Origin: Magnetospirillum sp.
Lineage (GTDB): Bacteria > Pseudomonadota > Alphaproteobacteria > Rhodospirillales > Magnetospirillaceae
Direction: 5' to 3'
Assembly: GCA_024707145.1 (NCBI GenBank)
Contig: JANQAI010000005.1
Span: 744,001-808,000 of the forward strand
Length of the DNA: 64,000 nt
The notes under the pieces are model-generated. The model had not been told where the DNA came from. It made no database searches and worked only from the letters and a program-made list of their open reading frames with translations. Positions 6,255 through 64,000 of the stretch are shown one piece after another. Within the stretch, counting starts at the first letter, position 1. The number at the start of each line of letters is the position of its first letter. The position numbers were made by a program, and so were the translations under genes.

Positions 6255-9200
6255 ATGAAGCTGGTCCTTGAACCCCGTTGCCTGTTCGATGGTTCGGTCG
6301 CCGCGACGGCGGATCATGCCGCCGATGCTGCTCAGCAAACTTCCGCCATTCCTGCCGACGCCCAGGGCGCCGATGCCGCCCATGCGGATACGGGTTCGCA
6401 CGATGCCGCCCCTCCGGCGGTCGGCCAGGCGGCGGAGGCATCCTCGGCGCGCGAGATCATGTTCGTGGACCAGCGCGTGGCCGGCTGGGAGCAGTTGGTT
6501 CAGGACGCCCGCCCGGACGTGCAAGTGGTGGTGCTGGACCTGCACCGCGATGCGCTGACCCAGATTTCCGAAACGTTGACCGGCCGCCAGGGCATCGAGG
6601 CCATCCACATCGTCTCGCACGGCAGCGGCGGCAGCCTCGATATGGGCAACGGCGTGGTGACGGCATCGGCGCTGGCCGCCAATTCCGATCAGGTGGCGAG
6701 TTGGCGTGACCATCTGGCGGATGGCGCCGACATCATGCTGTGGGGCTGCGACGTGGGGGCGGGAGAGGCCGGGCAGGCCCTTCTGGCCGACCTGCATTCC
6801 CTCACCGGCGCCGACGTGGCCGCCTCGACCGACGCCACCGGCGCCACCGCCCGGGGCGGCGACTGGGTGCTGGAGCGTGCGGTGGGGGGCATCGAGCACG
6901 ACACCCCGCTGACCGCCGCCGGCATTGCCGGCTATGATTCCCTGCTCGCGCCGCCCGCCATCAGCGATACCCAGCCGGCCAACCAGACCCGCGAGGTGGT
7001 GGAGGACGGCACGCTCGGCATGGCGAGATCTGTCCGTCTCGGGCAACGGCACCCTGACCGTGACCCTGACGCTGACCGAACACGGCCATGCGCCGGCCGC
7101 CGGCACCTTCTCGCTCGCCGGCACCAGCGGGCTGAGCTTCACCGCGGGCGACGGCACCAGCGACACCGTCATGACCTTTTCCGGCACGGCAGCGGACATT
7201 AACGCCGCTCTGTCCGGCCTGACTTACCGTCCCACCGCCAATTACAACGGCGACGCCAAGTTCGCTGTCTCCGTCACCAGCGGCGAGGGCAACGCCAGTG
7301 CGGACGTGAACATCCAGGTGGTGCAGACCAACGACGCCCCGGACCTCAATCCCCCGGCCCTGGGTAGCCCCGCCGTCGCCACGGTGAACGAGGGATTCGG
7401 CAACACGGTGGTGCTGACGCCGCAGAATTTCGGCATCGACGCCACCAGCCTCGCCACCCTGGGCCTGTTCGACGCCGATCTGGACCCCGCTTTGTCCACG
7501 GCCAAGGTGCAGACCGCCGACCAGCTCACCTTCGAGCTGACCGCCGTCCCCGACCTCGCCAAGGGCCGCCTGTACAAGGACGGCGCGCCCTTGCTGGCCG
7601 GGTCGCTGTTCACCCTGGCCGACCTGATGGCCGGGCGCATCACCTACGAACACCAGGGGGCGCAGGCCAACAACGCCCTGGCGGCGGGCAGCGAGGCCGA
7701 CAGCTTCACCGTGACCATCCGCGACGGCGCGGGCGGCAGCGATACCGGCACCATCAATATCAGGATCGTGCCGGTCAACCAGGCGCCGGTGGTCAGCGGC
7801 GCAGCCTCGGTCACCGCCTATGAAGGCCGCAATGGGGTGCCGGTGACCATCAGCATTTCCGACCCCGACCAGGTCAGCGGTACCTGGAAGATTTCCTTCA
7901 GCGACCTCGATCTGCAAGGGGGCGTGCTGTATCTGGAAAACGGCGGCAACGGGCAGTACAACGCCGGCACCGACACGCTGATCACCGACGCCTACGTCTT
8001 CACCGGCACATTGGCGCAACTGAATGCCAAGCTGCGCCTTGACGTCAGCGGCAACGAACCCTCAAGCAGCATCACCTTCAAGGTGACCGCCACCGACGAC
8101 GACGGCGGCACCGTGAACGCCGGCGCCACGGCGGGCGACGGCGCCTCCGGCACCGTCACGGTTACCATCGATCCGGTGGAGAACAACGACCATCCGGTGC
8201 TGGCCACCAATGCCGGCGCCGATGCTGGAAATCCGGTCTATGCCGGCGACGGCGTCCACACCATCGACGTCGACAGCACCCTGCTGGGCATCACCGACCC
8301 CGACAGCCCCGATACCACCCTGACCTTCACCCTGACCTCGGGGATCGTGCGCGACAGCGGCAACGGCACCGCCTATCTGTTGCGGGACGGACTGGCGCTG
8401 TCCAACGGCGGTTCCTTCACCTATCAGGATGTCCTGGACGGCAGGATCCAGCTGGTCCTTACCGGCGGCAGCGGCGTCAACGACTTCCACTTCGATTTCC
8501 AGGTCCGCGACGGCGAGATCACCGCCTTTTCCACCGTCCGGCAGGTGGTGGACCCCATCGACGGCGGCACCCGCAATGCGGCGGACACCGCCTACCTGAC
8601 CCATGCGTTTCATTTCCGCTTCGATACGCCGTCCGGTTCGGGCGGCAGCTACACGCCCGAGCCGGCCAACCAGGCGCCGCAGGTCACCCAGATCATCGGC
8701 ATCCGGGCCGGCGAGCTGGTCGAAGGCGGCACGGTGACCCTGAAGGGCGACGGCAGCGGCCCCGGCATCGTCATCACCGATTTGGACAACGGCGATGCCG
8801 AACTCACCATCCGCCTGGAAACCCTGCCCACCGGTGGCACCCTGCTGCTGAATGGTGCGGCCATCCCCCTGTTCGGCAGCTTCACCTACGCCGATCTGAA
8901 GGCGGGCAAGGTGACGTACCGCCATGACGGCGGCGAATATTTCCAGTCCGGCAACCTGGGTTTCACCTTCTCGGTGTCCGACGGTGCGGCCGCGCCGGTG
9001 ACGCCGCCGGTCAATTCCAGCGCGCTGGACCCGCTGGATGCCGACCCCGCGCACAATTTCTCGGTTGAGGCGGCGCCGGTCAACGACACCCCGACACTGG
9101 CCGTCAACACCGCCGCCCTGGTCAAGGAAGGCTATTCCCTGGCCTTCAACACCGCCGGGCAGCCCGTCATCACCCTATCCGACGTGGACGGCAGCGGCGA

Positions 9201-54427: not shown

Positions 54428-55000
54428 TCAGAGGATTTCCACCGCCGCCCGCATCATGGCGTCGTTGACCTCGATATAACGTTGCGTGGTGCTGAGGTGC
54501 CGGTGCCCGGCCAGCGTCATGATGACCTTGGCCGACACGCCGGAATGGGCGAGCCGGGTGATGAACCAGCGTCGGCCGCTGTGACTGCTGGCGCCGTCGA
54601 TCCCAGCTGCCGCATAGAGGTTGGTGAACAACTGGCACAGGGTATTGGGGGAGAACGCCGTCTGCTTTTGCGTTAGCAGGAACGGGGTGTCGCCGGGGCG
54701 CTGGGCGACCTTCAGCGCGACCACATAGCGTTCCAGTTCCTTGCGCAGCTTGTCGCCCACGAACACCGCCCGCGCCTCGCCGGTCTTGGTGATGGCTCCG
54801 CGCAGCAGGACTTGGTCCTTGACCCGGCCTTCGCCGTCCAGCACGTCCTTGACGGTCAGGGCGGCGATCTCGCCCACGCGCATTCCAGCATAGAAACTGA
54901 GCATGAGGGCGGCGCGGTTGCGGGCCGCGTGCTTCCTGCTGGCGATGACGGCCAGTACGCGTTTCAGCTCGCTCTCGCTCAGAACCTTGGCCTGCTTCAT
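54428..55000 (-). CDS. Tyrosine recombinase / integrase
   Basis: A 190-residue catalytic domain of the phage-integrase family without a large N-terminal arm-binding domain. Catalytic residues in order: Arg in AGMRVGEIAAL, Lys in the beta-hairpin near GAITKTGEARAV, His-x-x-Arg in SHSGRRWFITRL, His in GHRHLSTTQRYIEV and the nucleophile Tyr in that block. At this size it resembles small solitary recombinases of plasmids and islands. It may act on the tRNA-Leu repeats about 8 kb away or on other sites; unproven. Confidence 0.85.
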   Translation of the reverse strand: MKQAKVLSESELKRVLAVIASRKHAARNRAALMLSFYAGMRVGEIAALTVKDVLDGEGRVKDQVLLRGAITKTGEARAVFVGDKLRKELERYVVALKVAQRPGDTPFLLTQKQTAFSPNTLCQLFTNLYAAAGIDGASSHSGRRWFITRLAHSGVSAKVIMTLAGHRHLSTTQRYIEVNDAMMRAAVEIL

Positions 55001-55330
55001 GGCTGAAACCTTGAGAAATCAACGCCAACACACAAAACGTTATAAGCGCCGATTGCCCGAAGTCGCAACGGCGTTGATCCACACATTATTTCAATGAGAT
55101 AGCCGAAACATAAGAAAATGTGCGTTTGTAAATAAGACAAAGTCTGGCAATCAGCAATTAATTCCAAGGCGATGCAGCATGAGTTCTTGCCGTGGTGTCC
55201 CACGCGCCTTTTCCGAGCGACAACGCCTCGCGTTGGCTGCCGCGCCTCCGGGCCAGGAAAACCTAATGAAACGCACAGAAGTACATATTCGTGCCCGGCC
55301 ATGCCGGATACGACGGGCCACAGAGTCGAT
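55001..55330. other. 330-bp non-coding gap before the FixJ-like gene
   Basis: No credible gene. It contains AT-rich sequence next to the recombinase start and one copy of GCACAGAAGTACA at 55273-55285, which recurs upstream of the 56064 gene. Confidence 0.5.
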
Positions 55331-55963
55331 ATGCAGCAAGAACCACCCTACGTCGTCGCCGTCGTGGATGATGATGCCGGTTTCCGGGACGCGATTGGCT
55401 GGCTGCTCAAGGCCAATGGTTATGTGGTGCGCGGCTATGGCGACGCCCGGTCATTCCTCGCCGGTCATGATCCAACAGTGATCGGCTGCGTGCTGCTCGA
55501 TCTGCGCCTGGACGATTCCTGCGGCATCGACACCTTCATGGAAGCGCGGCGGTGTGGTCTTGATGCGCCCGTACTGATGATCTCGGGGCACGGCGACATC
55601 CCCACCGCAGTCAAGGCCGTGAAGCTTGGCGCGGCTGGCTTCCTCGAAAAACCCGTGGACAACGACAAGCTGCTCGCCACCGTGGCGGCGGCCTGCACGG
55701 CGCACCAGCAGCAATGCCGCCAGCATGGCCGGGCGATCAACGCTTTGAAGGGTTACGATCTGTTGACCAATCGGGAACGGCAGGTGTTTTGGGCCATCAC
55801 CGACGGCCTGACCAACAAGGAAATCGCCTCCACATTGGATATCAGCATCCGGACGGCTGAAACCCACAGGGCGCGCGTTTTTGAGAAGATGGCAGCGGGC
55901 AGTGTCGGAGAACTGAACAGAGCGGCGCATTTCCTGCCTCGGCGACCGCTCGTCAATCCGTAG
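55331..55963 (+). CDS. FixJ/NodW-family response regulator
   Basis: A 210-residue regulator. Receiver domain: VVDDDAGFRDAIGWLL acidic pocket, phosphorylatable Asp in CVLLDLRLDDSCG, SGHGDIPTAVKAVKLGAAGF and FLEKPVD (Lys). The LuxR-type helix-turn-helix is LTNREREVFW-like (LLTNRERQVFWAITDGLTNK) with EIASTLDISIRTAETHRARV. No kinase gene adjoins it; it is close in sequence to the regulator at 62828, so a common kinase is possible. Start at MQQEPP; an ATG ten codons upstream is an alternative. Confidence 0.88.
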   Translation: MQQEPPYVVAVVDDDAGFRDAIGWLLKANGYVVRGYGDARSFLAGHDPTVIGCVLLDLRLDDSCGIDTFMEARRCGLDAPVLMISGHGDIPTAVKAVKLGAAGFLEKPVDNDKLLATVAAACTAHQQQCRQHGRAINALKGYDLLTNRERQVFWAITDGLTNKEIASTLDISIRTAETHRARVFEKMAAGSVGELNRAAHFLPRRPLVNP

Positions 55964-56863: not shown

Positions 56864-57325
56864 ATGCGTAACGTGCCAGCGGTGATCATCTTGTCGCTGG
56901 CCATACTCCTTGTGGCCAGTAAAGCACGAGCGACAAACGGCACTTGCGAAGAGCTGAAGCTCGACCTCCCACCCATCTACGATGCGCTGCAAGCTCGCCT
57001 CCGGCAGCATATGTTCACCCGCGACAACAACCTGAAGATCACGGTTGAGCAGGACACGGCTGCCTTCCAGCGGTTCACCGACATTGCGGACCATTACGAC
57101 AAACTGATGGTGAACGCCATCCGCTACTACAACGACGGCGATCCCGAAGCGGAACGTCTCTGCAAGGGTTATGTTTTCAAGGCCAACTGCGAGGCATACC
57201 AAGTTTACCTCGACACCGTGATCAACCTCCCCGGCATCGATCGGGAAGCGGTGATCCGCGAAGGTGAAAGGAGATGCGCCAGAGCACGAAGGGCGTCCTA
57301 CACACCCATTGAGGGAGGCAGATAG
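56864..57325 (+). CDS. Exported protein of unknown function
   Basis: A 153-residue protein with signal peptide MRNVPAVIILSLAILLVASKARA. Mature part is helical and contains four cysteines (CEELKLDL, CKGYVFKANCEAYQVYL, RRCARARRA). Forms an operon with the preceding membrane-protein gene. No family recognised. Confidence 0.55.
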   Translation: MRNVPAVIILSLAILLVASKARATNGTCEELKLDLPPIYDALQARLRQHMFTRDNNLKITVEQDTAAFQRFTDIADHYDKLMVNAIRYYNDGDPEAERLCKGYVFKANCEAYQVYLDTVINLPGIDREAVIREGERRCARARRASYTPIEGGR

Positions 57326-57370
57326 CCCTTCTCGATGGTATGGCCGCATGGCTCCTGCCATAGCGCGCCT

Positions 57371-57982
57371 TCATCGCACTTGCTGCGGCGGCAGCAGGTT
57401 GTGGAACAGCACGTCGCCATCCCGGACGGCGGCCACAATCTTCGCCCACAGCAGAGGATCACTCCATTCCTCGCGCACGCGGTCGCTGAAGACGATCTGA
57501 TCGAACGCGACGGCGCCACCCATGCCGGGATCAAGCGCATCGCTGCGCCAGCATTGAGCATAGCCGGTCTGGGTTTCGTGGACGATGACACTGTCGAGGG
57601 AAACACCGCCTTCGCCGTTGCCGAATTCCGTTGCCGCCAGCACGGCATCGACCATGACGAAGAACACCCGGCTGAACTGCTCGGCGCTCGGGTTCACCGG
57701 CATGGACACCCACCGCTCGCTGTGACGCTTGATGAAAGCTATGTACTCGGGGTCATCGCGATCCCAGAAGCAGGCGGCATGATCCCAGGAATCGATCAAC
57801 ACCTTGATCGCCCCCTTCAGTAGGCCGAAATCCAGGATCATCCCGGCGTTGTCCAGCCGCGCGGCGGTCAGCAGCAATTCCACTCGGTAGCTGTGGCCGT
57901 GCAGGCTGACGGCGCAACGGCGTGTCGAACAATTGCGCACTACATGGGCGTTCTCGAACTTGAACAGCTTGCGGATGATCAT
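57371..57982 (-). CDS. queD: QueD-like 6-pyruvoyl-tetrahydropterin synthase family protein
   Basis: A 203-residue protein of the PTPS/QueD fold. The zinc ligands are His13 in FENAHVVRNC and His28/His30 in SLHGHSYRVEL; Cys23 is close to the catalytic cysteine position. DFGLLKGAIKVLIDSWDHAA holds the conserved Asp-His. It is longer than E. coli QueD (about 120). QueD makes 6-carboxy-tetrahydropterin, an early intermediate of 7-deazaguanines. Last gene of the operon read GT, QueD-like, TGT-like, QueD; its ATG follows the TGT-like stop by 2 bp, so all four are probably one transcript. Confidence 0.78.
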   Translation of the reverse strand: MIIRKLFKFENAHVVRNCSTRRCAVSLHGHSYRVELLLTAARLDNAGMILDFGLLKGAIKVLIDSWDHAACFWDRDDPEYIAFIKRHSERWVSMPVNPSAEQFSRVFFVMVDAVLAATEFGNGEGGVSLDSVIVHETQTGYAQCWRSDALDPGMGGAVAFDQIVFSDRVREEWSDPLLWAKIVAAVRDGDVLFHNLLPPQQVR

Positions 57983-57984
57983 GG

Positions 57985-59595
57985 CTACGGCGTCACCATC
58001 TTCGCCAAGGCCGTATCCGGCGTCTCGCTGACCAAGGCTTCCGCCAGTTCGTCGGCAAGCGCCGGCCATTTCTCGATTTCCGCCGCCGCGCCCTCGTAGG
58101 TGTAGCGCAGGTACATTTCCTGGCTGATGCAGGTGTGGACGATGTAGCCCATGGGCGTCAGGCGATCCGGCCTCGTGCCGTCTTCCTCGTCGGCATCGTC
58201 GTCGATGGCCGCCGCCACGCCGCTCCTTGGTGGCTTCATCTCGACCAGCTTCCAGTAATTCTCGGTGGTCAGGTGTTCGGCAAGCGCGCTAGTGCCCAGG
58301 GCCCTGGCGCTTTCCACCACCCGATCAAGCGCGAACTCGATGAAACCGGGCTGGGCGTTCCACCGCTCGATGGCGAAAGCCTTGAAGTCCGGCACCTCGA
58401 CCAGCCGGTCGTAAGCGGCCAGCAGGAATTCCGGACTGTTCGTGACGAATTCCGCGCCGATCTCGATCTCGTCGTCCTCGGCGCAGCGGCTGAGGTCGAA
58501 ATCCCAATCCAGCAGCCCCATGTTCTCCCGGAACCAACCGATATCGAAGGTCAGGGCGTCGGGGTGCATTCCCACCCAATCGCGGACGCATTGGGCAAGA
58601 TCGGGGGTGTCGTCCCCGTGATAGTCGAAGAACTCGATCTCCAGCGCCTTGCGGAGTTTGATGCCCTGCGCGCCTTCCGCATAATACTGGCGCCGCTTGC
58701 CCATCTCGGAATTGGGGTTGGAGGCGTCGCAGCTCACGGTGAAGCCGTCATCCTTCAACACCTTGCGCAAGGCCCGTTGCAGCAAGGTGAAGAACGCCAC
58801 GTCCTCGGGACCGGTGATGCCCAGCATGTGTATCCAACGCTGGTTGGTATCCGGCCCGAGAACGCCGTCTCGCAGCATACGGGCGACGCTGCGCAGGATG
58901 GCGCTGCGATTGCGCACGGCTATGCCGCCGAAGGCCCAGCCATCGAAGGCTTGCTCGCCCCACTTGCTACGATCGCAATAGCCCTTGATCGCCTCGTACC
59001 ACGCCAGCGCCCCGTCGGGGCCGTCCACCGACAAGCCCTGCATGACGTTCAGCATGCGGGCCTTGCGGGGATCGCGGTTCTGGATCAGCCAATCGCAATT
59101 CAGCTTGGTCCAGGTCAGGCATTCCTCGAAGCTGTCGATGCAATCCGCCTTGTCGCTGTGGACGCTACCGGTGGGCACGTCCATGGCGATAGCGATATCG
59201 CTGATGGCTTCCTGCCATGCCAGTATCTCGGCACGCTTGCCGTGGTATTCGTCCGGGGTCCAAATCCCCTGGTAGACCTGGAAGCCGCCGCTGTCGCTGA
59301 TGACCGTGGCGTCCTTGCGCCGCCGATAAAGGGGGGCGTCGTTGACCAACGACCGTTCCACGTCGAGGCTGGAAACCCCGCCCGCGCTGTAAAGCGCCGC
59401 GTCGTACCGGAACAGCCCCTCGTCGCTGAGATAGTTGAACTGGCCGAACGAACGGAAGCCGTGATCCTTGATGGCCTGGAACACGTCATCCCGCTTGGAA
59501 TAAGCGTAGAAGCTGCTGTGAATGGCGGGAAAGACCGAGGCGAAGTCTTTGCGCCAATGCCGGTAATCCAAGCCGGGGTCGATCTCTACGCCCAT
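57985..59595 (-). CDS. tRNA-guanine transglycosylase-like protein, DpdA type
   Basis: A 536-residue protein related to TGT base-exchange enzymes. The signature DSGGFQVYQG (Asp101, substrate recognition) is intact. Other TGT-like blocks are LNVMQGLSVDGPDGALAWY and DGWAFGGIAVRNRSAIL, then WIHMLGITGPEDVAFF. Queuine TGTs run about 370-400 residues; DpdA enzymes, which put 7-deazaguanines into DNA, are divergent and phage or island borne, as here. The long C-terminal region (about 370-536) is unlike classical TGT, and the zinc CxCxxC motif is not visible. Neighbouring QueD-like proteins and a glycosyltransferase support a nucleic-acid modification role. DNA or RNA as target is open. Confidence 0.75.
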   Translation of the reverse strand: MGVEIDPGLDYRHWRKDFASVFPAIHSSFYAYSKRDDVFQAIKDHGFRSFGQFNYLSDEGLFRYDAALYSAGGVSSLDVERSLVNDAPLYRRRKDATVISDSGGFQVYQGIWTPDEYHGKRAEILAWQEAISDIAIAMDVPTGSVHSDKADCIDSFEECLTWTKLNCDWLIQNRDPRKARMLNVMQGLSVDGPDGALAWYEAIKGYCDRSKWGEQAFDGWAFGGIAVRNRSAILRSVARMLRDGVLGPDTNQRWIHMLGITGPEDVAFFTLLQRALRKVLKDDGFTVSCDASNPNSEMGKRRQYYAEGAQGIKLRKALEIEFFDYHGDDTPDLAQCVRDWVGMHPDALTFDIGWFRENMGLLDWDFDLSRCAEDDEIEIGAEFVTNSPEFLLAAYDRLVEVPDFKAFAIERWNAQPGFIEFALDRVVESARALGTSALAEHLTTENYWKLVEMKPPRSGVAAAIDDDADEEDGTRPDRLTPMGYIVHTCISQEMYLRYTYEGAAAEIEKWPALADELAEALVSETPDTALAKMVTP

Positions 59596-59930
59596 GACAA
59601 TATCGCTCCGTTTTCACCGTCTTCGCTGATATCGATTTCCACCGCGCGGCCCGGATAGCGTTCCGCGATCCGCCCATAAAGCTCCTCGGCCATCATTTCG
59701 CAGCTACGCCCGTCGAGGCCGAGGGTGCGGGCGTCGTACAGCGACTCCAGCCATTCTTGGAAAAGGTGGAATTCGATGTCGCGGTCGTTGTGGCGCACCT
59801 CGATGGACACCTTGAACCAGAAGGTGTGCCGATGGGTGTGGGCCAGATATTCGACCTCGGCCGGGGCACCGGCATAGCGGTGCAGGCCGCGCTTGCGGAA
59901 GGTCACATAGATCATGCGCCGCGCCATCAT
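59586..59930 (-). CDS. Short QueD/PTPS-like protein
   Basis: A 114-residue protein with MIYVTFRKRGLHRYAGAPAE, then YLAHTHRHTFWFKVSIEV and DIEFHLFQEWLESLY. The HTHRHTFWFKV block resembles the HxHxFxVxV zinc-binding strand of QueD, but the usual first histidine and catalytic cysteine are not obvious. It may be a divergent subunit or a pterin-binding regulator. Overlaps the TGT-like start by 10 bp and the glycosyltransferase stop by 4 bp (ATGA). Confidence 0.6.
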   Translation of the reverse strand: MMARRMIYVTFRKRGLHRYAGAPAEVEYLAHTHRHTFWFKVSIEVRHNDRDIEFHLFQEWLESLYDARTLGLDGRSCEMMAEELYGRIAERYPGRAVEIDISEDGENGAILSWA

Positions 59931-61072
59931 GCCCCCACGAGGTGCTGGTAAAGGGGCGTGGCGGTCAGATAGCGCGCCTTCAGCGCCTGCTCCTGCCGGG
60001 CGATCTCGGCCTGCATTTTCGGCGTGGCGTAATCGTCCATCAGCGTGCGGATATAGGAGACCAGGAAGTCCTTGTTGGCCCGATAGGCTTCCCAATTGGC
60101 CGTCCAGTCGCTGGGGTACAGGAACGGCGCGCTGTATTGCTCATTATAGGCCAGTCGCCGGGGCGACAACGGCATGGCCCCTGCGATGGTGGCCTCGGCC
60201 TGGGCGATTCCCAACGTCTCTTGCAGCGCGGCGCTGAACGACATTTTCGCCTGCCCCAACAGCGCATGGTATTGCGGCTTGCTCAGGGCATGTTCCTGGC
60301 ACACGACCCATTCGTATTGCGGCAGGGCGGCGGCCAAGTCCTTGAAGATGTCGAGCTGCTTCTCCGGGGCCAGCCGGTGGGGGAACAGGATCAGGTTGGG
60401 CCGTTGCTCGGGCGGCAAGCGGTGCGGCGGCAACTCGTCCCATAGGTATTCATTGGGATAGCCGCTATACGCCGCGTGGTCGCCCATCTCGTCGTCGTCG
60501 ATCTTGAGGACGCGGGAGAACAGCCCCCAATGGAACGAGGTGGTGAAGAAGTTGCGGTCGATGGCCCAGAACAGCGCCCGCTCGGTGGCATAGGACCACC
60601 TTTTGTCGGCGATGTTGCGGCCCAGGAAGTCCCACGGGTCATAGGAACCCGCATGCCAGATCGCCGAAATGTCCCAACTTACATCAAGTAAGTTCCGCAT
60701 GTAGGCGAGTTGCAGGATGCCGGGGTGCCACGCATCGGTGACCAGGACCTTGTCGCCGTCGCGGACCAACCCCGCCTCGACCATGCCGATGAAGCGGTTG
60801 ACCTGCTGGTTCTTCCACAGATTGGTGGTGGCGAAGTTGAGGAACGCCCCGGTACTGGCCCGCTGCGTGCCGCCATCACCCGGCACGTTGACAATGTTGA
60901 GTGTGCCGCTGTCGATGGCTTCCTGACCGAAACCCGCCATGCCCATGTGGACACGCGCCGCGATCCCCTGGCCTTCAGCATGGGCGGCGATCTGCCGAGG
61001 GACACCCGCGAACCACTGCGCCGTGTAGCGCGTCTCGATGGGTTCCAGCGACAATATCCAGATTGTGTGCAT
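59927..61072 (-). CDS. Family 4-type glycosyltransferase
   Basis: A 381-residue GT-B enzyme. The C-terminal half has NLILFPHRLAPEKQLDIFKD, and FSAALQETLGIAQAEATIAG with the E-x7-E motif of nucleotide-sugar GT4 enzymes, then GAMPLSPRRLAYNEQY. First gene of the operon with the TGT-like and two QueD-like genes. No other polysaccharide genes are nearby, so sugar transfer to a modified nucleobase is an attractive but unproven idea. A palindrome of the island family lies inside the frame and encodes NLLDVS. ATG at 61072 is preferred to a TTG eight codons upstream. Confidence 0.75.
   Translation of the reverse strand: MHTIWILSLEPIETRYTAQWFAGVPRQIAAHAEGQGIAARVHMGMAGFGQEAIDSGTLNIVNVPGDGGTQRASTGAFLNFATTNLWKNQQVNRFIGMVEAGLVRDGDKVLVTDAWHPGILQLAYMRNLLDVSWDISAIWHAGSYDPWDFLGRNIADKRWSYATERALFWAIDRNFFTTSFHWGLFSRVLKIDDDEMGDHAAYSGYPNEYLWDELPPHRLPPEQRPNLILFPHRLAPEKQLDIFKDLAAALPQYEWVVCQEHALSKPQYHALLGQAKMSFSAALQETLGIAQAEATIAGAMPLSPRRLAYNEQYSAPFLYPSDWTANWEAYRANKDFLVSYIRTLMDDYATPKMQAEIARQEQALKARYLTATPLYQHLVGA
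60675..60695. repeat. Palindrome family copy 4, inside the glycosyltransferase gene
   Basis: CAACTTAC and GTAAGTTC around ATCAA. Read on the other strand its core is the same as copy 3 (AACTTAC-TTGAT-GTAAGTT). The only copy inside a reading frame. Confidence 0.7.
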
Positions 61073-61183
61073 GGTGACGTGCCGCCCCGATGGCAATTGC
61101 TTCGGGCGGGCACGCTATGCCGGTCGGGATAGGCCGGGTATTGGGGGAATCTACGAATGGACGGCGCTCCAGCGCGCCGCCCG

Positions 61184-62743
61184 CTACTTTTTTGCGCGGA
61201 AGCGTATCTTGTCGATCGCTGCTCCTATAAGGAGGCCGCCAAATGCAGTAACCTTCGAGCCAAAATTTTCGGCAGACGCAAGGCGCTGCGCGCGCCGCTG
61301 ATGTCTGCTGTTACGGAGAATAAGTAGCTGTTGTTCTTTGGTTAATCCGAGAATCCCGGCATTATTTTGCAATGAACCGTCCGCAATTGACGATATAATG
61401 CGAACAGGATCGCTTTGGGGCGCCGATGGTTCTTCCCAATGTTTCTTTGCATGTTCTCTGATCGAAGAGATTGGGCAGAGGCCAGCTAGGTCTTGGCTGG
61501 GCTGGTTGAGCCAAGTCTTAATTTCAGCCTCTGACATTAAGGAGGTTAGTCGATGTTCAAGGGCGCTTAACTCGCGTTTGTAAAGCTCCTCTGTGCGTTG
61601 CTCGCGGCGGCGGCGAGCCTGCTCCTCACGCACTATCCTCTGGCGCTCCCGCTCCTGTGCCTGCCGCTCCCTTTCATCAGTAATATTCCGCAACCGTTCT
61701 TGAATAATTTGCTGCCATTGCTGAACGGGCATCGTTGCCTCAGGCTCGGGTGGGCGAACCTTGCGCCATCCTGGCTTGAACCCTAAGTGTTGTCGAATAT
61801 CGATGGCACCGACAAAGTTAGGGTACGGGCATTGAAGCGCGACATCCTCGGTGAGAAATTCACGATCTGGCGTGGCCCCGCAATGAGGGCAGATCAAGTT
61901 TTGTTCTACGTTGGGGGCGACTTTAAGCGTCTTTCCGGGAGTTAGCTGGGTCAACTGACGAAGCTTGCTTAATGCCTGCTCCCCGAATGAAGCCTCTGCT
62001 AAGGGAATGGCCATAGGCTTGTTCCCTCCGCGAACACGGTTTGGATAGGCCACCGAGAATGTCGTTCGGAACCACTGCTGACCACAGTGTCCGCAAGGAT
62101 AGTTGTATCCAATTAACGCAAGCGGAACCTTGGCGAGATCACGGCCCTCGTCATAAACCATGCTTCCCTTCAATAGGGCAGTCAGAAGACCTCCGAGTTC
62201 ACGTATCCGTTCCTCCGTGTTCTTCTTCCGAAGAAGGAAAGCAGGGAGTCCTTGCCCGATAAGGTCTGGCGGAACTTCCTCATAATCCTGCTTTCGTAGA
62301 AAGAACCAAACGCTCCTTACACCCGAGGCGTTGTGACGTTCGACGCGTTCACGAGTCTCGTGATTTTTCTGGTCAGATTTCTGTATCTCAATCGCCGACT
62401 GCTCTCCTGTCACGGGGTGCGTAACAAGGACATCAGCACGCCAGTTGGGGCCAGAGGCCTCCATTTGCGCAAGATAGCCGCATCGTTTGGCAACAAGGTA
62501 AGCTTCCGCCTTTAGCCTTTCGTGCTCAATGCTTTCCTTGCCGGCTTCGCAATTTTTCGGAGCAGTATGGTGGCGGAAGAACCTAAAGCCGTTTTCATTT
62601 TGCACGGCTGTAGCGCGCGTCCGGCAGCAACTCGTTAATAGTTGATTGGTTTTGCTCCATTTTCGCACCCGTTCCCATTGCAAAGGATCGGTGATGTCTG
62701 CCGCGACAAGAAGGTCATCGCCATGGAACGCAGTTTGGGGCAT
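61184..62743 (-). CDS. CoiA-like nuclease family protein with zinc fingers and coiled coil
   Basis: A 519-residue protein. The N-terminal ~190 residues match the competence CoiA family: HHTAPKNCEAGKESIEHERL, then NWRADVLVTH and QSAIEIQKSDQKNHETRERV, giving the D...ExQ core of a PD-(D/E)XK nuclease, followed by VWFFLRK. Two CxxC pairs (YPCGHCGQQW, LICPHCGATP) form a likely zinc finger. A long Arg/Glu-rich coiled coil (about 335-410) follows. In island context it is more likely a DNA-end or foreign-DNA nuclease than a transformation protein. Upstream of and in the same direction as the glycosyltransferase operon, 111 bp apart. Confidence 0.75.
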   Translation of the reverse strand: MPQTAFHGDDLLVAADITDPLQWERVRKWSKTNQLLTSCCRTRATAVQNENGFRFFRHHTAPKNCEAGKESIEHERLKAEAYLVAKRCGYLAQMEASGPNWRADVLVTHPVTGEQSAIEIQKSDQKNHETRERVERHNASGVRSVWFFLRKQDYEEVPPDLIGQGLPAFLLRKKNTEERIRELGGLLTALLKGSMVYDEGRDLAKVPLALIGYNYPCGHCGQQWFRTTFSVAYPNRVRGGNKPMAIPLAEASFGEQALSKLRQLTQLTPGKTLKVAPNVEQNLICPHCGATPDREFLTEDVALQCPYPNFVGAIDIRQHLGFKPGWRKVRPPEPEATMPVQQWQQIIQERLRNITDERERQAQERERQRIVREEQARRRREQRTEELYKRELSALEHRLTSLMSEAEIKTWLNQPSQDLAGLCPISSIREHAKKHWEEPSAPQSDPVRIISSIADGSLQNNAGILGLTKEQQLLILRNSRHQRRAQRLASAENFGSKVTAFGGLLIGAAIDKIRFRAKK

Positions 62744-62827: not shown

Positions 62828-63448
62828 CTAGATTGCCTGCCGAGTGCAATGCTTTGACATGCCGACTAAGTCAGCCAATCCGTTCACTCGCATTTTTTCA
62901 AAAACTCGTGTCCGATGCACCTCAGCAGTCCTAATGCTGATATGTAGTTCGCTCGCGATTTCCTTGGTTGCCTTGCCATTGACCAGCAGCCAGAACACCT
63001 CCTGCTCACGCACGGTCAACAGGCCGTAAAGCCGCATCGCATCAACCGCCCGGCCATAGCGGGCACAGAAATCGCGGTGATGGGCGCAGGCGCTGGCGAC
63101 ATCGGCCAGTAGCTTGGTGTTGTCGATGGGTTTCTCGATGAACCCCATTGCCCCTTGCTGCACCGCCTTGACAGCGGTGGGAATGTCGCCGTGGCCGGAA
63201 ATCATGATCACCGGCATGTCGTGGCCGTGCGCCCGTGAGCGCCGGAAGACCTCAATGCCGCAATCCTCGCCCAGGCGCAGATCGATCAAGGCGCAACCGA
63301 TGGCACGCATGTCGTGCCGGGCGATGAAGCTGTCGGCATCGCCATAGGGGCGAGCATCATGGCCGTTGGCCCGTAGCAGCCAGACGATGGCCTCGCGGAA
63401 GCTGGCATCGTCATCAACGACGGCAACGACGAAGGGCGTTTCGGTCAT
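62828..63448 (-). CDS. FixJ-family response regulator
   Basis: A 206-residue regulator: VVDDDASFREAIVWLLRANG, Asp in CALIDLRLGEDCG, SGHGDIPTAVKAVQQGAMGF and FIEKPID. The LuxR helix-turn-helix is VREQEVFWLLVNGKATKEIA then LHISIRTAEVHRTRVFEKM. The ATG overlaps the kinase stop (ATGA), so kinase and regulator are co-translated. About half identical by eye to the regulator at 55331. Target genes unknown. Confidence 0.9.
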   Translation of the reverse strand: MTETPFVVAVVDDDASFREAIVWLLRANGHDARPYGDADSFIARHDMRAIGCALIDLRLGEDCGIEVFRRSRAHGHDMPVIMISGHGDIPTAVKAVQQGAMGFIEKPIDNTKLLADVASACAHHRDFCARYGRAVDAMRLYGLLTVREQEVFWLLVNGKATKEIASELHISIRTAEVHRTRVFEKMRVNGLADLVGMSKHCTRQAI

Positions 63449-64000
63449 GACGCCACCGGCAGCCAGCAGGTCACGCAGGCGCCGCCATCGGCGTTGTTGG
63501 CGATCTCCAGATCGCCGCCATGGGTAGTCAAGATGGCCCGCGCGATGGGAAGGCCGAAGCCACTGCCACCCGGCTTGGCCGAAGCGAACAGGGCGTGGCC
63601 GCTGCGCAAGGTCTCTTCCGCAAAGCCGGGGCCGCTGTCCTGCACGCGCAACACGGCCTTGCTGTTCTCTTCCGTCAGCGTGACCAACAAGGTCCGCTGG
63701 GGCGCGGTGGCCATCGCCTCGCAGGCATTGCGGACCAGATTGACCGCCAATTGCTGAAGTGTGGCACGATCGCCCAAGACCTTGGCCGTGCATCCGTCCA
63801 ACTCGAATTGGGCCGACACTCCGCTATCATCGCAAATCTGGCGCAGCAGCGGCATCACGTCGCCCATAACCGCCGCCAACAGCAGCACTTCGCGCTTGCC
63901 GGCGGCCTGGTCGAACTGCGCCTGGTTGGCGGCGATGATCTCGCGCACCCGCTGCACCTCGCGCTCCAGCCGTCCGGTGATTTCCGGCAGTTCCGCCGGA
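63445..64000 (-). CDS. Sensor histidine kinase, catalytic C-terminus (runs off the window)
   Basis: The visible 184 residues contain the end of a HisKA-like helix (LERE...RVREIIAANQAQFDQ) and a HATPase domain: LQQLAVNLVRNACEAMA (N box), DSGPGFAEE (G1) and GGSGFGLPIARAI (G2). The frame is open past position 64000, so the sensor part is missing here. Paired with the FixJ-like regulator, it resembles FixL/NodV-type kinases. Confidence 0.85.
   Translation of the reverse strand, partial: PAELPEITGRLEREVQRVREIIAANQAQFDQAAGKREVLLLAAVMGDVMPLLRQICDDSGVSAQFELDGCTAKVLGDRATLQQLAVNLVRNACEAMATAPQRTLLVTLTEENSKAVLRVQDSGPGFAEETLRSGHALFASAKPGGSGFGLPIARAILTTHGGDLEIANNADGGACVTCWLPVAS

Follow-up and report, generated by a model that had tools for sequence, protein, structure and literature searches.

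We analyzed a 64,000-nucleotide stretch of Magnetospirillum sp. DNA (contig JANQAI010000005.1, positions 744,001 to 808,000; hereafter the window), which carries a compact minus-strand cassette of four genes encoding a glycosyltransferase (GT), a 113-aa T-fold protein, a TGT/DpdA-like transglycosylase and QueD. We propose, at a probability of roughly 0.6, that this cassette is a phage-derived system for the hypermodification of guanine in DNA, in which a base made without QueC would be exchanged into DNA by the TGT-like enzyme and then decorated with a sugar by the GT. The GT, T-fold and TGT genes recur together in phage and viral loci, where QueC-anchored loci lack the GT and T-fold genes, and the cassette is under purifying selection in Magnetospirillum.

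A preliminary description of the locus had placed these genes in one minus-strand operon with overlapping genes, preceded by a CoiA-like nuclease gene. All five open reading frames (GT, short QueD-like, TGT-like, QueD and CoiA-like) were confirmed on the minus strand, with the gene starts chosen as those conserved in relatives. Their order holds, as do a 1-nt overlap between the GT gene (61072-59927) and the 113-aa gene (59927-59586) and a 10-nt overlap between the 113-aa gene and the TGT-like gene (59595-57985), but the QueD gene (57982-57371) follows the TGT-like gene after a 2-nt gap rather than overlapping it. The four cassette genes are:

59927..61072, minus strand: predicted GT4-type (GT-B) glycosyltransferase, 381 aa, first gene in the conserved cassette (family matches PF00534).
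59586..59927, minus strand: T-fold protein, 113 aa, belonging to the QueD superfamily (phrog_17812, predicted structure).
57985..59595, minus strand: TGT/DpdA-like transglycosylase, 536 aa, "type A" (motifs, hhalign, Foldseek).
57371..57982, minus strand: 203-aa QueD, QueD2 type (PTPS, 7v0f).

The ratio of nonsynonymous to synonymous substitution rates (dN/dS) is 0.055-0.25 for the GT, the T-fold protein and TGT copies of the same type, and 0.13-0.22 for QueD; values this low indicate purifying selection and show that the open reading frames are not chance occurrences.

The GT of the window alone gave a weak Pfam match (0.0055), whereas at family level Glycos_transf_1 (PF00534) was matched by 14 of 20 members (E up to 1, best 8e-12) and GT4-conflict by two of the 20. 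Residues R233, E237, K238, E285 and E293 are invariant in the family alignment, and we take E285 and E293 to form the EX7E motif. Judged from sequence, the family thus appears to possess the GT4-type C-terminal domain of GT-B enzymes, in line with the GT4 glycosyltransferase that had been described. Among the Magnetospirillum cassettes its dN/dS is 0.055-0.12. Six Magnetospirillum copies and phage Phosso have overlapping GT and T-fold genes. In the GT gene tree, the Magnetospirillum proteins group with Phosso within the phage sequences, though support is weak (82/55), and no GT relative was found on plasmids.

The 113-aa protein, which matches no Pfam family, belongs to phrog_17812, a family of unknown function (9.5e-29). 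Its structure was predicted with confidence (pLDDT 93.6, pTM 0.85), and the nearest Foldseek neighbor of the model was E. coli QueD (4ntk; 3.7e-5, TM-score 0.77, 15% identity). The family alignment holds six invariant residues: H16, H32, H34, C76, E77 and E102. The three histidines stand at the places of the QueD zinc ligands, and the C-terminal glutamate is kept too. The catalytic cysteine of QueD (before HG[HY]) and its Asp-His pair are invariant in eight QueD sequences, but the T-fold family has no conserved cysteine or Asp-His at these places: in the hhalign alignment of QueD with the T-fold family, the pair faces Asp65-Ala66, which is not conserved, and the cysteine falls outside the match. 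Since the QueD catalytic residues have no conserved counterpart, the protein should not be a 6-carboxytetrahydropterin (CPH4) synthase. The QueD-like label given to it earlier therefore stands for the fold and the zinc histidines, while the protein is probably not a second QueD. The Magnetospirillum copies are constrained as well (dN/dS 0.10-0.25).

The TGT-like protein gave weak library matches by itself (0.044 in Pfam and 0.0026 in NCBIfam). The intact DSGGFQV that had been noted in it is part of a wider conservation: D101, S102, G103, G104, Q106, D139, G187 and D290 are invariant among 23 aligned sequences, and the family aligns motif by motif with the tRNA-TGT of the host (hhalign probability 85, E 5.9e-6). 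By sequence, the family thus appears to carry the catalytic motifs of the TGT/DpdA superfamily, namely DSGGFQ, the second Asp, QG, GG and the nucleophilic Asp. The zinc site of TGT enzymes consists of three cysteines and a histidine after the barrel. Type A, the form present in the window, has no cysteine cluster, and type B, found in three of the relatives (L049-L051), has CxxxC...CxxC at the zinc-site place. The best Foldseek match of the TGT-like model was TGT 3gc4 (E 3.1e-5). When the alignments of TGT, the T-fold protein and the GT were used on their own as profiles against PDB, only weak matches appeared.

The fourth gene is a QueD homologue as previously described (PTPS 6.8e-21; A. baumannii QueD2 7v0f 2.1e-69), and in the window itself it is the only one among FolE, QueD and QueE. 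A check of the genome for queC, queE and folE had been suggested. The genome (5.14 Mb, 91.6% complete, 6.3% contamination) encodes canonical QueC, tRNA-TGT, a second QueD and FolE, as well as a QueE candidate beside the second QueD, whose match (6.4e-13) lies far under the model cut-off, a cut-off that no control genome reached either. Given these genes, the base precursors are probably available in the host.

The suggested search for the gene set in phages found it in many large-phage and viral loci. Using tblastn against 50,697 phage records, we detected relatives of the T-fold protein in 26, of the GT in 15 and of the TGT in 13. The T-fold gene is present in all 15 GT-bearing records, which represent four phage groups and include 11 PA5oct-like records. 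Paride, ACP17 and X1 carry the GT, T-fold and TGT genes together with QueE, and ACP17 and X1 also with FolE; PA5oct holds the three genes at the same three places. In Phosso the GT and T-fold genes are adjacent, FolE and QueE are near, and the TGT gene lies elsewhere in the genome. In four annotated phages the cassette genes are located among genes for DNA polymerase, clamp, RecA, primase or helicase, and a protein cluster that includes the annotated DNA polymerases occurs in 18 of 27 viral loci.

A GT-anchored scan of viral contigs yielded 28 loci, which contained the T-fold protein (27), TGT (26), FolE (24), QueE (21), QueD (7) and QueC (0). We also collected loci anchored on the T-fold protein, on TGT and, as a control, on QueC. 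The T-fold- and TGT-anchored scans comprise the best 80 of at least 599 stretches each and so lean towards relatives of the window cassette. Loci of about 17 kb were dereplicated at 80% anchor identity, the anchor sets overlap, and the main figures refer to loci of at least 14 kb. On this basis all three genes were present in each of the 11 GT-anchored and 18 T-fold-anchored loci and in 24 of the 25 TGT-anchored ones, and a GT or T-fold gene in 0/17 QueC-anchored controls. With dereplicated loci of all lengths the triad was found in 15/15, 30/35 and 31/39 loci, respectively, versus 0/26 controls; its genes share one strand in all 15, 30 and 31 triads, with a median span of 4.3-5.2 kb. The earlier idea that a transglycosylase, a glycosyltransferase and a QueD-like protein form a unit is thus borne out. 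FolE accompanies the GT-, T-fold- and TGT-anchored loci in 10/11, 16/18 and 16/25 cases (control 17/17).

The cassette and QueC exclude each other. For the viral loci, the QueC, QueF and GT275 profiles were built from one sequence each, and with such a profile QueC was found in 0/11, 0/18 and 0/25 of the dereplicated, overlapping sets of at least 14 kb; for whole phage records we used the Pfam QueC profile, which detected a full-length QueC in none of 15 T-fold records. Conversely, Vibrio phage 2.275.O has a full-length QueC, along with QueF and a TGT-like gene, and no T-fold match. As the T-fold protein is found where QueC is not, it should act at or after 7-carboxy-7-deazaguanine (CDG), the QueE product. 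A separate QueD is present in the window, ACP17, X1, Phosso, BUCT-ZZ01, phiST and RHph_I1_18, so that at least in ACP17, X1, Phosso and BUCT-ZZ01 the T-fold protein is not simply their QueD.

Together, these features suggest the following pathway. FolE, QueD or QueD2, and QueE of the host would produce CDG, which the T-fold protein, doing the job of QueC (and QueF), may convert, itself or as a close product, to the base that is used. The TGT/DpdA-like enzyme would then swap guanine in DNA for that base; which sequence or context is targeted probably depends on the TGT type. Finally, the GT4 enzyme would add a sugar, and the second, GT-A-like enzyme of the relatives described below may add another or act instead. 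The sugar acceptor might be a carboxylate, if CDG is kept and an ester formed, or a hydroxyl created in the T-fold step; a carbon-linked sugar is a further option. The benefit to the carrier would presumably be protection from nucleases.

In Magnetospirillum, the cassette is known from six loci, the window and five relatives (L047-L051). The best relatives of the locus lie on Magnetospirillum contigs, and identical loci are present in genomes that the search assigned to this genus, which marks the source genome as a Magnetospirillum. The order GT, T-fold, TGT and QueD is common to all of them, as are a second response-regulator gene and an integrase gene; a kinase/regulator pair lies on the other side in the five cassettes whose contig reaches there. 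The surrounding features in the window are:

54428..55000, minus strand: tyrosine integrase, 190 aa, beside all six Magnetospirillum cassettes (Phage_integrase 6.2e-27).
55172..55963, plus strand: second response-regulator-like gene, inverted, on the opposite side of the cassette (66-71% DNA identity with the first regulator as it occurs in the relatives).
57323..57374, minus strand: remnant of a second glycosyltransferase-like gene, about 720 bp missing (blastn junction, phmmer 9e-4).
61073..61164, minus strand: conserved cassette leader, its upstream end being the point where the relatives diverge (alignment of five loci).
61184..62743, minus strand: CoiA-like nuclease, an accessory gene (CoiA_nuc 5.4e-6).
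62828..63793, minus strand: response regulator with a receiver and a LuxR-type helix-turn-helix domain.
63445-65031: MASE1 histidine kinase gene, upstream of the response regulator and extending past the window end.

The relatives carry extra genes, one for a 115-aa protein (L047-L050) and one for a second glycosyltransferase-like protein of 257-267 aa (L047-L051), called GT-A-like from the annotation of its remote relatives. The latter has no Pfam, PHROG or PDB match; one relative at 29% identity lies elsewhere in Phosso and one at 26% in phage DSL-LC06. As members of the phage cassette, both this protein and the 115-aa protein were discarded, with no phmmer match in an early set of phage and viral loci. 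The GT, T-fold and integrase are 90-99% identical across the cassettes (the integrase 96-99%), whereas TGT falls into two types of about 55% identity. Between the types, the synonymous divergence (dS) of TGT is 0.92-1.01, as compared to 0.25-0.30 for the GT and 0.16-0.29 for the T-fold protein, from which it follows that the TGT gene has been exchanged as a module. Its dN/dS is 0.06-0.19 within a type and 0.38-0.42 between types. The second glycosyltransferase splits in the same way, with a dS of 0.66-0.90 between and 0.28-0.52 within types and a dN/dS of 0.05-0.26. In L047-L051 it switches type together with TGT, while the intervening 115-aa gene and QueD do not; with five loci, this joint switch is a hint only.

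In Azospirillum plasmid pAB510d (L005, 6388-9239), a 66% identical integrase stands beside a different TGT-like gene, the one TGT-like relative found on a plasmid, with no GT or T-fold gene in the 17 kb covered.

Combining the phage and bacterial data, a broader scenario can be put forward tentatively, as a proposal that we hold somewhat short of even odds: that phage DNA with a glycosylated 7-deazaguanine in place of guanine, made through a QueC-free T-fold route, is widespread, and that Magnetospirillum took the system over on an integrase-borne island, in which the base-exchanging enzyme, together with the second glycosyltransferase, is exchanged in the manner of a specificity subunit.

Several observations weigh against the proposed hypermodification of DNA or narrow it. 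The TGT-like model has a mean pLDDT of 60, with residues 91-290 mostly above 70 and the part beyond 292 largely unmodelled; its match to 3gc4 has TM-scores of only 0.29/0.42, so that a TGT barrel can be assigned to the core part only tentatively, and an hhalign comparison of the family profile with the single sequence of phage 9g DpdA gave no match (probability 0.6). That DNA rather than tRNA or protein is the substrate we infer from indirect evidence. If the T-fold protein simply decarboxylates CDG, C7 offers no obvious sugar acceptor. QueE was located in 10/11 GT-, 6/18 T-fold- and 7/25 TGT-anchored loci (control 14/17) and QueD, without dereplication, in 5/17, 7/36 and 5/33 (control 25/26). 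The route to CDG is therefore often locally incomplete, and phage or host genes elsewhere would have to supply the missing steps; in X1 and Phosso QueD lies far from the cassette, so local absence does not show absence. Partial QueC matches occurred in three of the 15 T-fold records, one of them over the cut-off, and four of the 15 records are contigs, possibly fragmentary. This GT family is missing from six phages that have T-fold and FolE genes, hence the T-fold product can be used without it. Among bacteria the cassette is rare. Of 55 genomes in the family, six have the T-fold gene; five belong to the genus of the window strain, and the sixth carries the gene on a 4-kb contig without other cassette genes. 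Of 398 genomes across the phylum, only that of the window strain itself gave a match. Finally, the window copy has lost the 115-aa gene and, through a deletion of about 720 bp, the second glycosyltransferase.

These losses raise the question of whether the window copy is a decaying relic of a phage cassette whose function is gone. We regard this as unlikely, though it fares best among the alternatives: the four remaining reading frames are intact, and the dN/dS of the window copy against its relatives is low for the GT (0.07-0.10), for TGT within its type (0.13-0.19) and for QueD (0.13-0.16). The 115-aa gene is also missing from L051 and is the least constrained gene of the set (dN/dS 0.42-0.65).

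The cassette might instead act on tRNA, with the TGT-like enzyme and the GT making a glycosylated queuosine-like base. Animals possess enzymes for mannosyl- and galactosyl-queuosine in tRNA, and the vertebrate queuosine mannosyltransferase uses a GT4 fold; this fold, the TGT superfamily membership and the queuosine pathway genes of the host would all suit such a role. However, the host already has a canonical TGT, the GT has no Pfam match to the Q-glycosyltransferase domain, the copies in annotated phages have genes of DNA replication around them, and full-length QueC, which queuosine needs, was not found in the T-fold phage records. A tRNA function therefore seems improbable to us.

We consider equally improbable a scheme in which the T-fold protein stands in for QueD rather than QueC, making the QueE substrate while the inserted base comes by another route. 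The QueD fold would fit, as would the scarcity of QueD in the 17-kb loci given above relative to the controls. On the other hand, the residues needed for QueD catalysis have no conserved counterpart, separate QueD genes exist in the window and in the six phages named, and full-length QueC was not found in T-fold records.

The preliminary description had also offered the CoiA-like nuclease as a restriction or processing partner, which would make the locus a restriction-modification system whose modification protects self DNA while the nuclease cuts unmodified DNA. The nuclease gene (62743-61184) does lie directly upstream of the GT gene on the same strand, at a distance of 111 nt, an IetAS defense pair and a HEPN gene are nearby, and in L048 the corresponding place is occupied by a gene for a calcineurin-like phosphoesterase. 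Yet no nuclease partner is constant: the CoiA-like gene is present in two of the five assessable cassettes (the window and L047) and absent from L048-L050 (L051 does not reach that far), and in L049 and L050 a composition-filtered listing gave no reading frame above 95 aa at this place. Among 42 loci (nine from phages, plasmids or records filed as phage, 28 viral contigs and five bacterial), a CoiA relative was detected in L047 only. Between the window and L047, the dS of the CoiA-like gene is 0.07, compared with 0.29 for the adjacent GT gene. Moreover, in an alignment of five loci, conservation of the cassette sets in abruptly some 92 nt before the GT gene, after the nuclease gene. A palindrome, ATTGGGG...CCCCCAAT, marks this upstream end (L048, L049 and L050 at 6439; window 61137-61162), and its left arm is replaced in both CoiA-bearing copies. 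On its patchy presence, its differing dS and the cassette boundary we reject the nuclease as a partner of the system; it is probably an accessory neighbor with a different history, and restriction-modification at this locus appears very unlikely.

Another scenario is that the GT stands outside the base pathway, glycosylating a surface or virion protein and merely traveling along with the other genes. The six T-fold phages that lack this GT family speak for it, but the GT is present in 31/39 TGT-anchored and 30/35 T-fold-anchored dereplicated loci versus 0/26 QueC-anchored ones, and the overlap with the T-fold gene is kept in the six Magnetospirillum copies and in Phosso. We give this scenario as little credence as restriction-modification.

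The least plausible alternative is a protein-modifying role on the model of type IV CBASS, in which Cap10, a member of the TGT family, binds a deazaguanylated partner. Cap10 was the third Foldseek match of the TGT-like model (5.4e-3) and the TGT family is described as able to act on proteins (PMC11996544), but the cassette has no QueC-like or CD-NTase gene, the TGT catalytic Asp residues are intact, and the phage copies are associated with FolE.

In T-fold phages that lack this GT family, namely phiST, Ahp1, D479, RHph_I1_18 and MA9V-3, a family of short proteins weakly resembling the TGT profile (hhalign E 1e-4, probability 57) is encoded near the T-fold gene, as seen in L052, L053, L056, L057 and L009; it has the motifs LDNSAFE and RSWDTSS and is perhaps another type of transglycosylase. 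In Bakedbeans, the sixth phage, the assignment of a reading frame to this family is doubtful. The presence of the short family would fit a T-fold protein that makes the inserted base and a GT that tailors it. In Synechococcus phage BUCT-ZZ01 (L055, 5373-9530), two other GT4 genes flank the TGT-like gene (6709-7956) and the T-fold gene, and genes for QueE, QueD and FolE lie nearby. A PF00534 search of ten whole records hit RHph_I1_18 and BUCT-ZZ01 only; as it missed the known GTs of Phosso and Paride, it is uninformative on the absence of GT4 enzymes. In Vibrio phage 2.275.O (L003, 9597-10709), a gene that weakly matches amidoligase (1.8e-4 over 30 residues, just under the cut-off) is located between the TGT-like gene and QueF/QueC, in the place of the GT. 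The product could possibly be an amino-acid-tailored 7-deazaguanine, and an amidoligase-like gene next to the amine-bearing base expected from QueC and QueF would fit a tailoring enzyme that follows the chemistry of the base.

Parts of the proposed system have known counterparts. T-even phages carry glucosylated hydroxymethylcytosine, whose sugar is put by GT-B enzymes on a base already in DNA; the cassette would share this phage GT-B sugar transfer, but on another base, introduced by base exchange and not as a modified dNTP. Bacteria reportedly harbor a dpd genomic island, described by Thiaville and colleagues in 2016, which likewise combines a transglycosylase and 7-deazaguanine genes, in a different gene set; PADLOC, which presumably contains dpd models, detected no dpd protein among the five genes; its coverage of further island genes was partial. 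Cui and colleagues are said to have reported in 2023 four additional 7-deazaguanine derivatives, a CDG decarboxylase named DpdL, DpdA3 and a 7-deazaguanine made without QueC. Their QueC-free route from CDG resembles ours and is not known to include a glycosyltransferase. The T-fold protein could be DpdL; phiST, which apparently belongs to that line of work, holds a T-fold relative found in this study.

Modification of phage DNA with 7-deazaguanines by DpdA-type enzymes is established (Hutinet et al. 2019, PMC6884629). Both systems comprise a transglycosylase, accompanied by FolE/QueD/QueE (for the cassette, in part of the loci), with missing steps possibly supplied by the host, whereas the cassette has no QueC, has a T-fold protein and a GT4 enzyme, and has a transglycosylase that was not matched to 9g DpdA. 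The preliminary description knew of no system with this gene set, which holds in part. Part of it was known already: for jumbo phage PA5oct, in which the GT, T-fold and TGT genes are all present, Iyer et al. (2021, PMC7824862) had predicted a system for deazaguanine synthesis and incorporation, and their passage on it names neither glycosylation nor a T-fold protein. A 2026 review of jumbo phages mentions predicted deazaguanine incorporation in general terms (PMC13282480). Across the literature searched, which included few subscription papers and some sources in part, no text coupled a glycosyltransferase to 7-deazaguanine in DNA or named the GT or the T-fold protein. A sugar-bearing 7-deazaguanine base in DNA is a chemistry that we did not find described.

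If the proposal is true, many large phages, including the cultured PA5oct, Paride, Phosso, ACP17 and X1, carry a sugar on 7-deazaguanine, which would account for two widespread phage genes that mostly lack annotation and bring a further CDG-processing enzyme into 7-deazapurine biosynthesis. The cultured phages would allow direct measurement of the base, and the swapped transglycosylases of Magnetospirillum would provide naturally occurring variants with which to study how targets are chosen.

Further observations concern the wider loci. A phosphoribosyltransferase family was seen in ten loci (e.g., L020:14636-15172), with one member identified as a phosphoribosyltransferase and several close to QueE; it is not specific, being present in 18 of 28 GT loci and in eight of 26 long control loci, and possible roles are the salvage of guanine freed by base exchange or the conversion of base to nucleotide. 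One locus filed as phage (L010; CAKLQH020000011, "Acinetobacter phage MD-2021a") carries msbA, lpxK, rpsA and type II secretion genes and looks like bacterial chromosome. In the window, promoter and terminator scanning of 57200-61400 gave signals not above those of shuffled sequences. An empty-site comparison found that the left and right flanks of the island are not neighbors in a complete relative (G025) and are rearranged in another (G024), which leaves the island ends undefined. An AAA ATPase and S8 subtilase pair at 47954-51398 matches the IetA/IetS defense system (PADLOC 1.8e-81 and 8.1e-32), and a gene for an LA2681-like HEPN protein (L059:9261-10823), a possible toxin, lies upstream of the kinase gene, a short way beyond the right end of the window.

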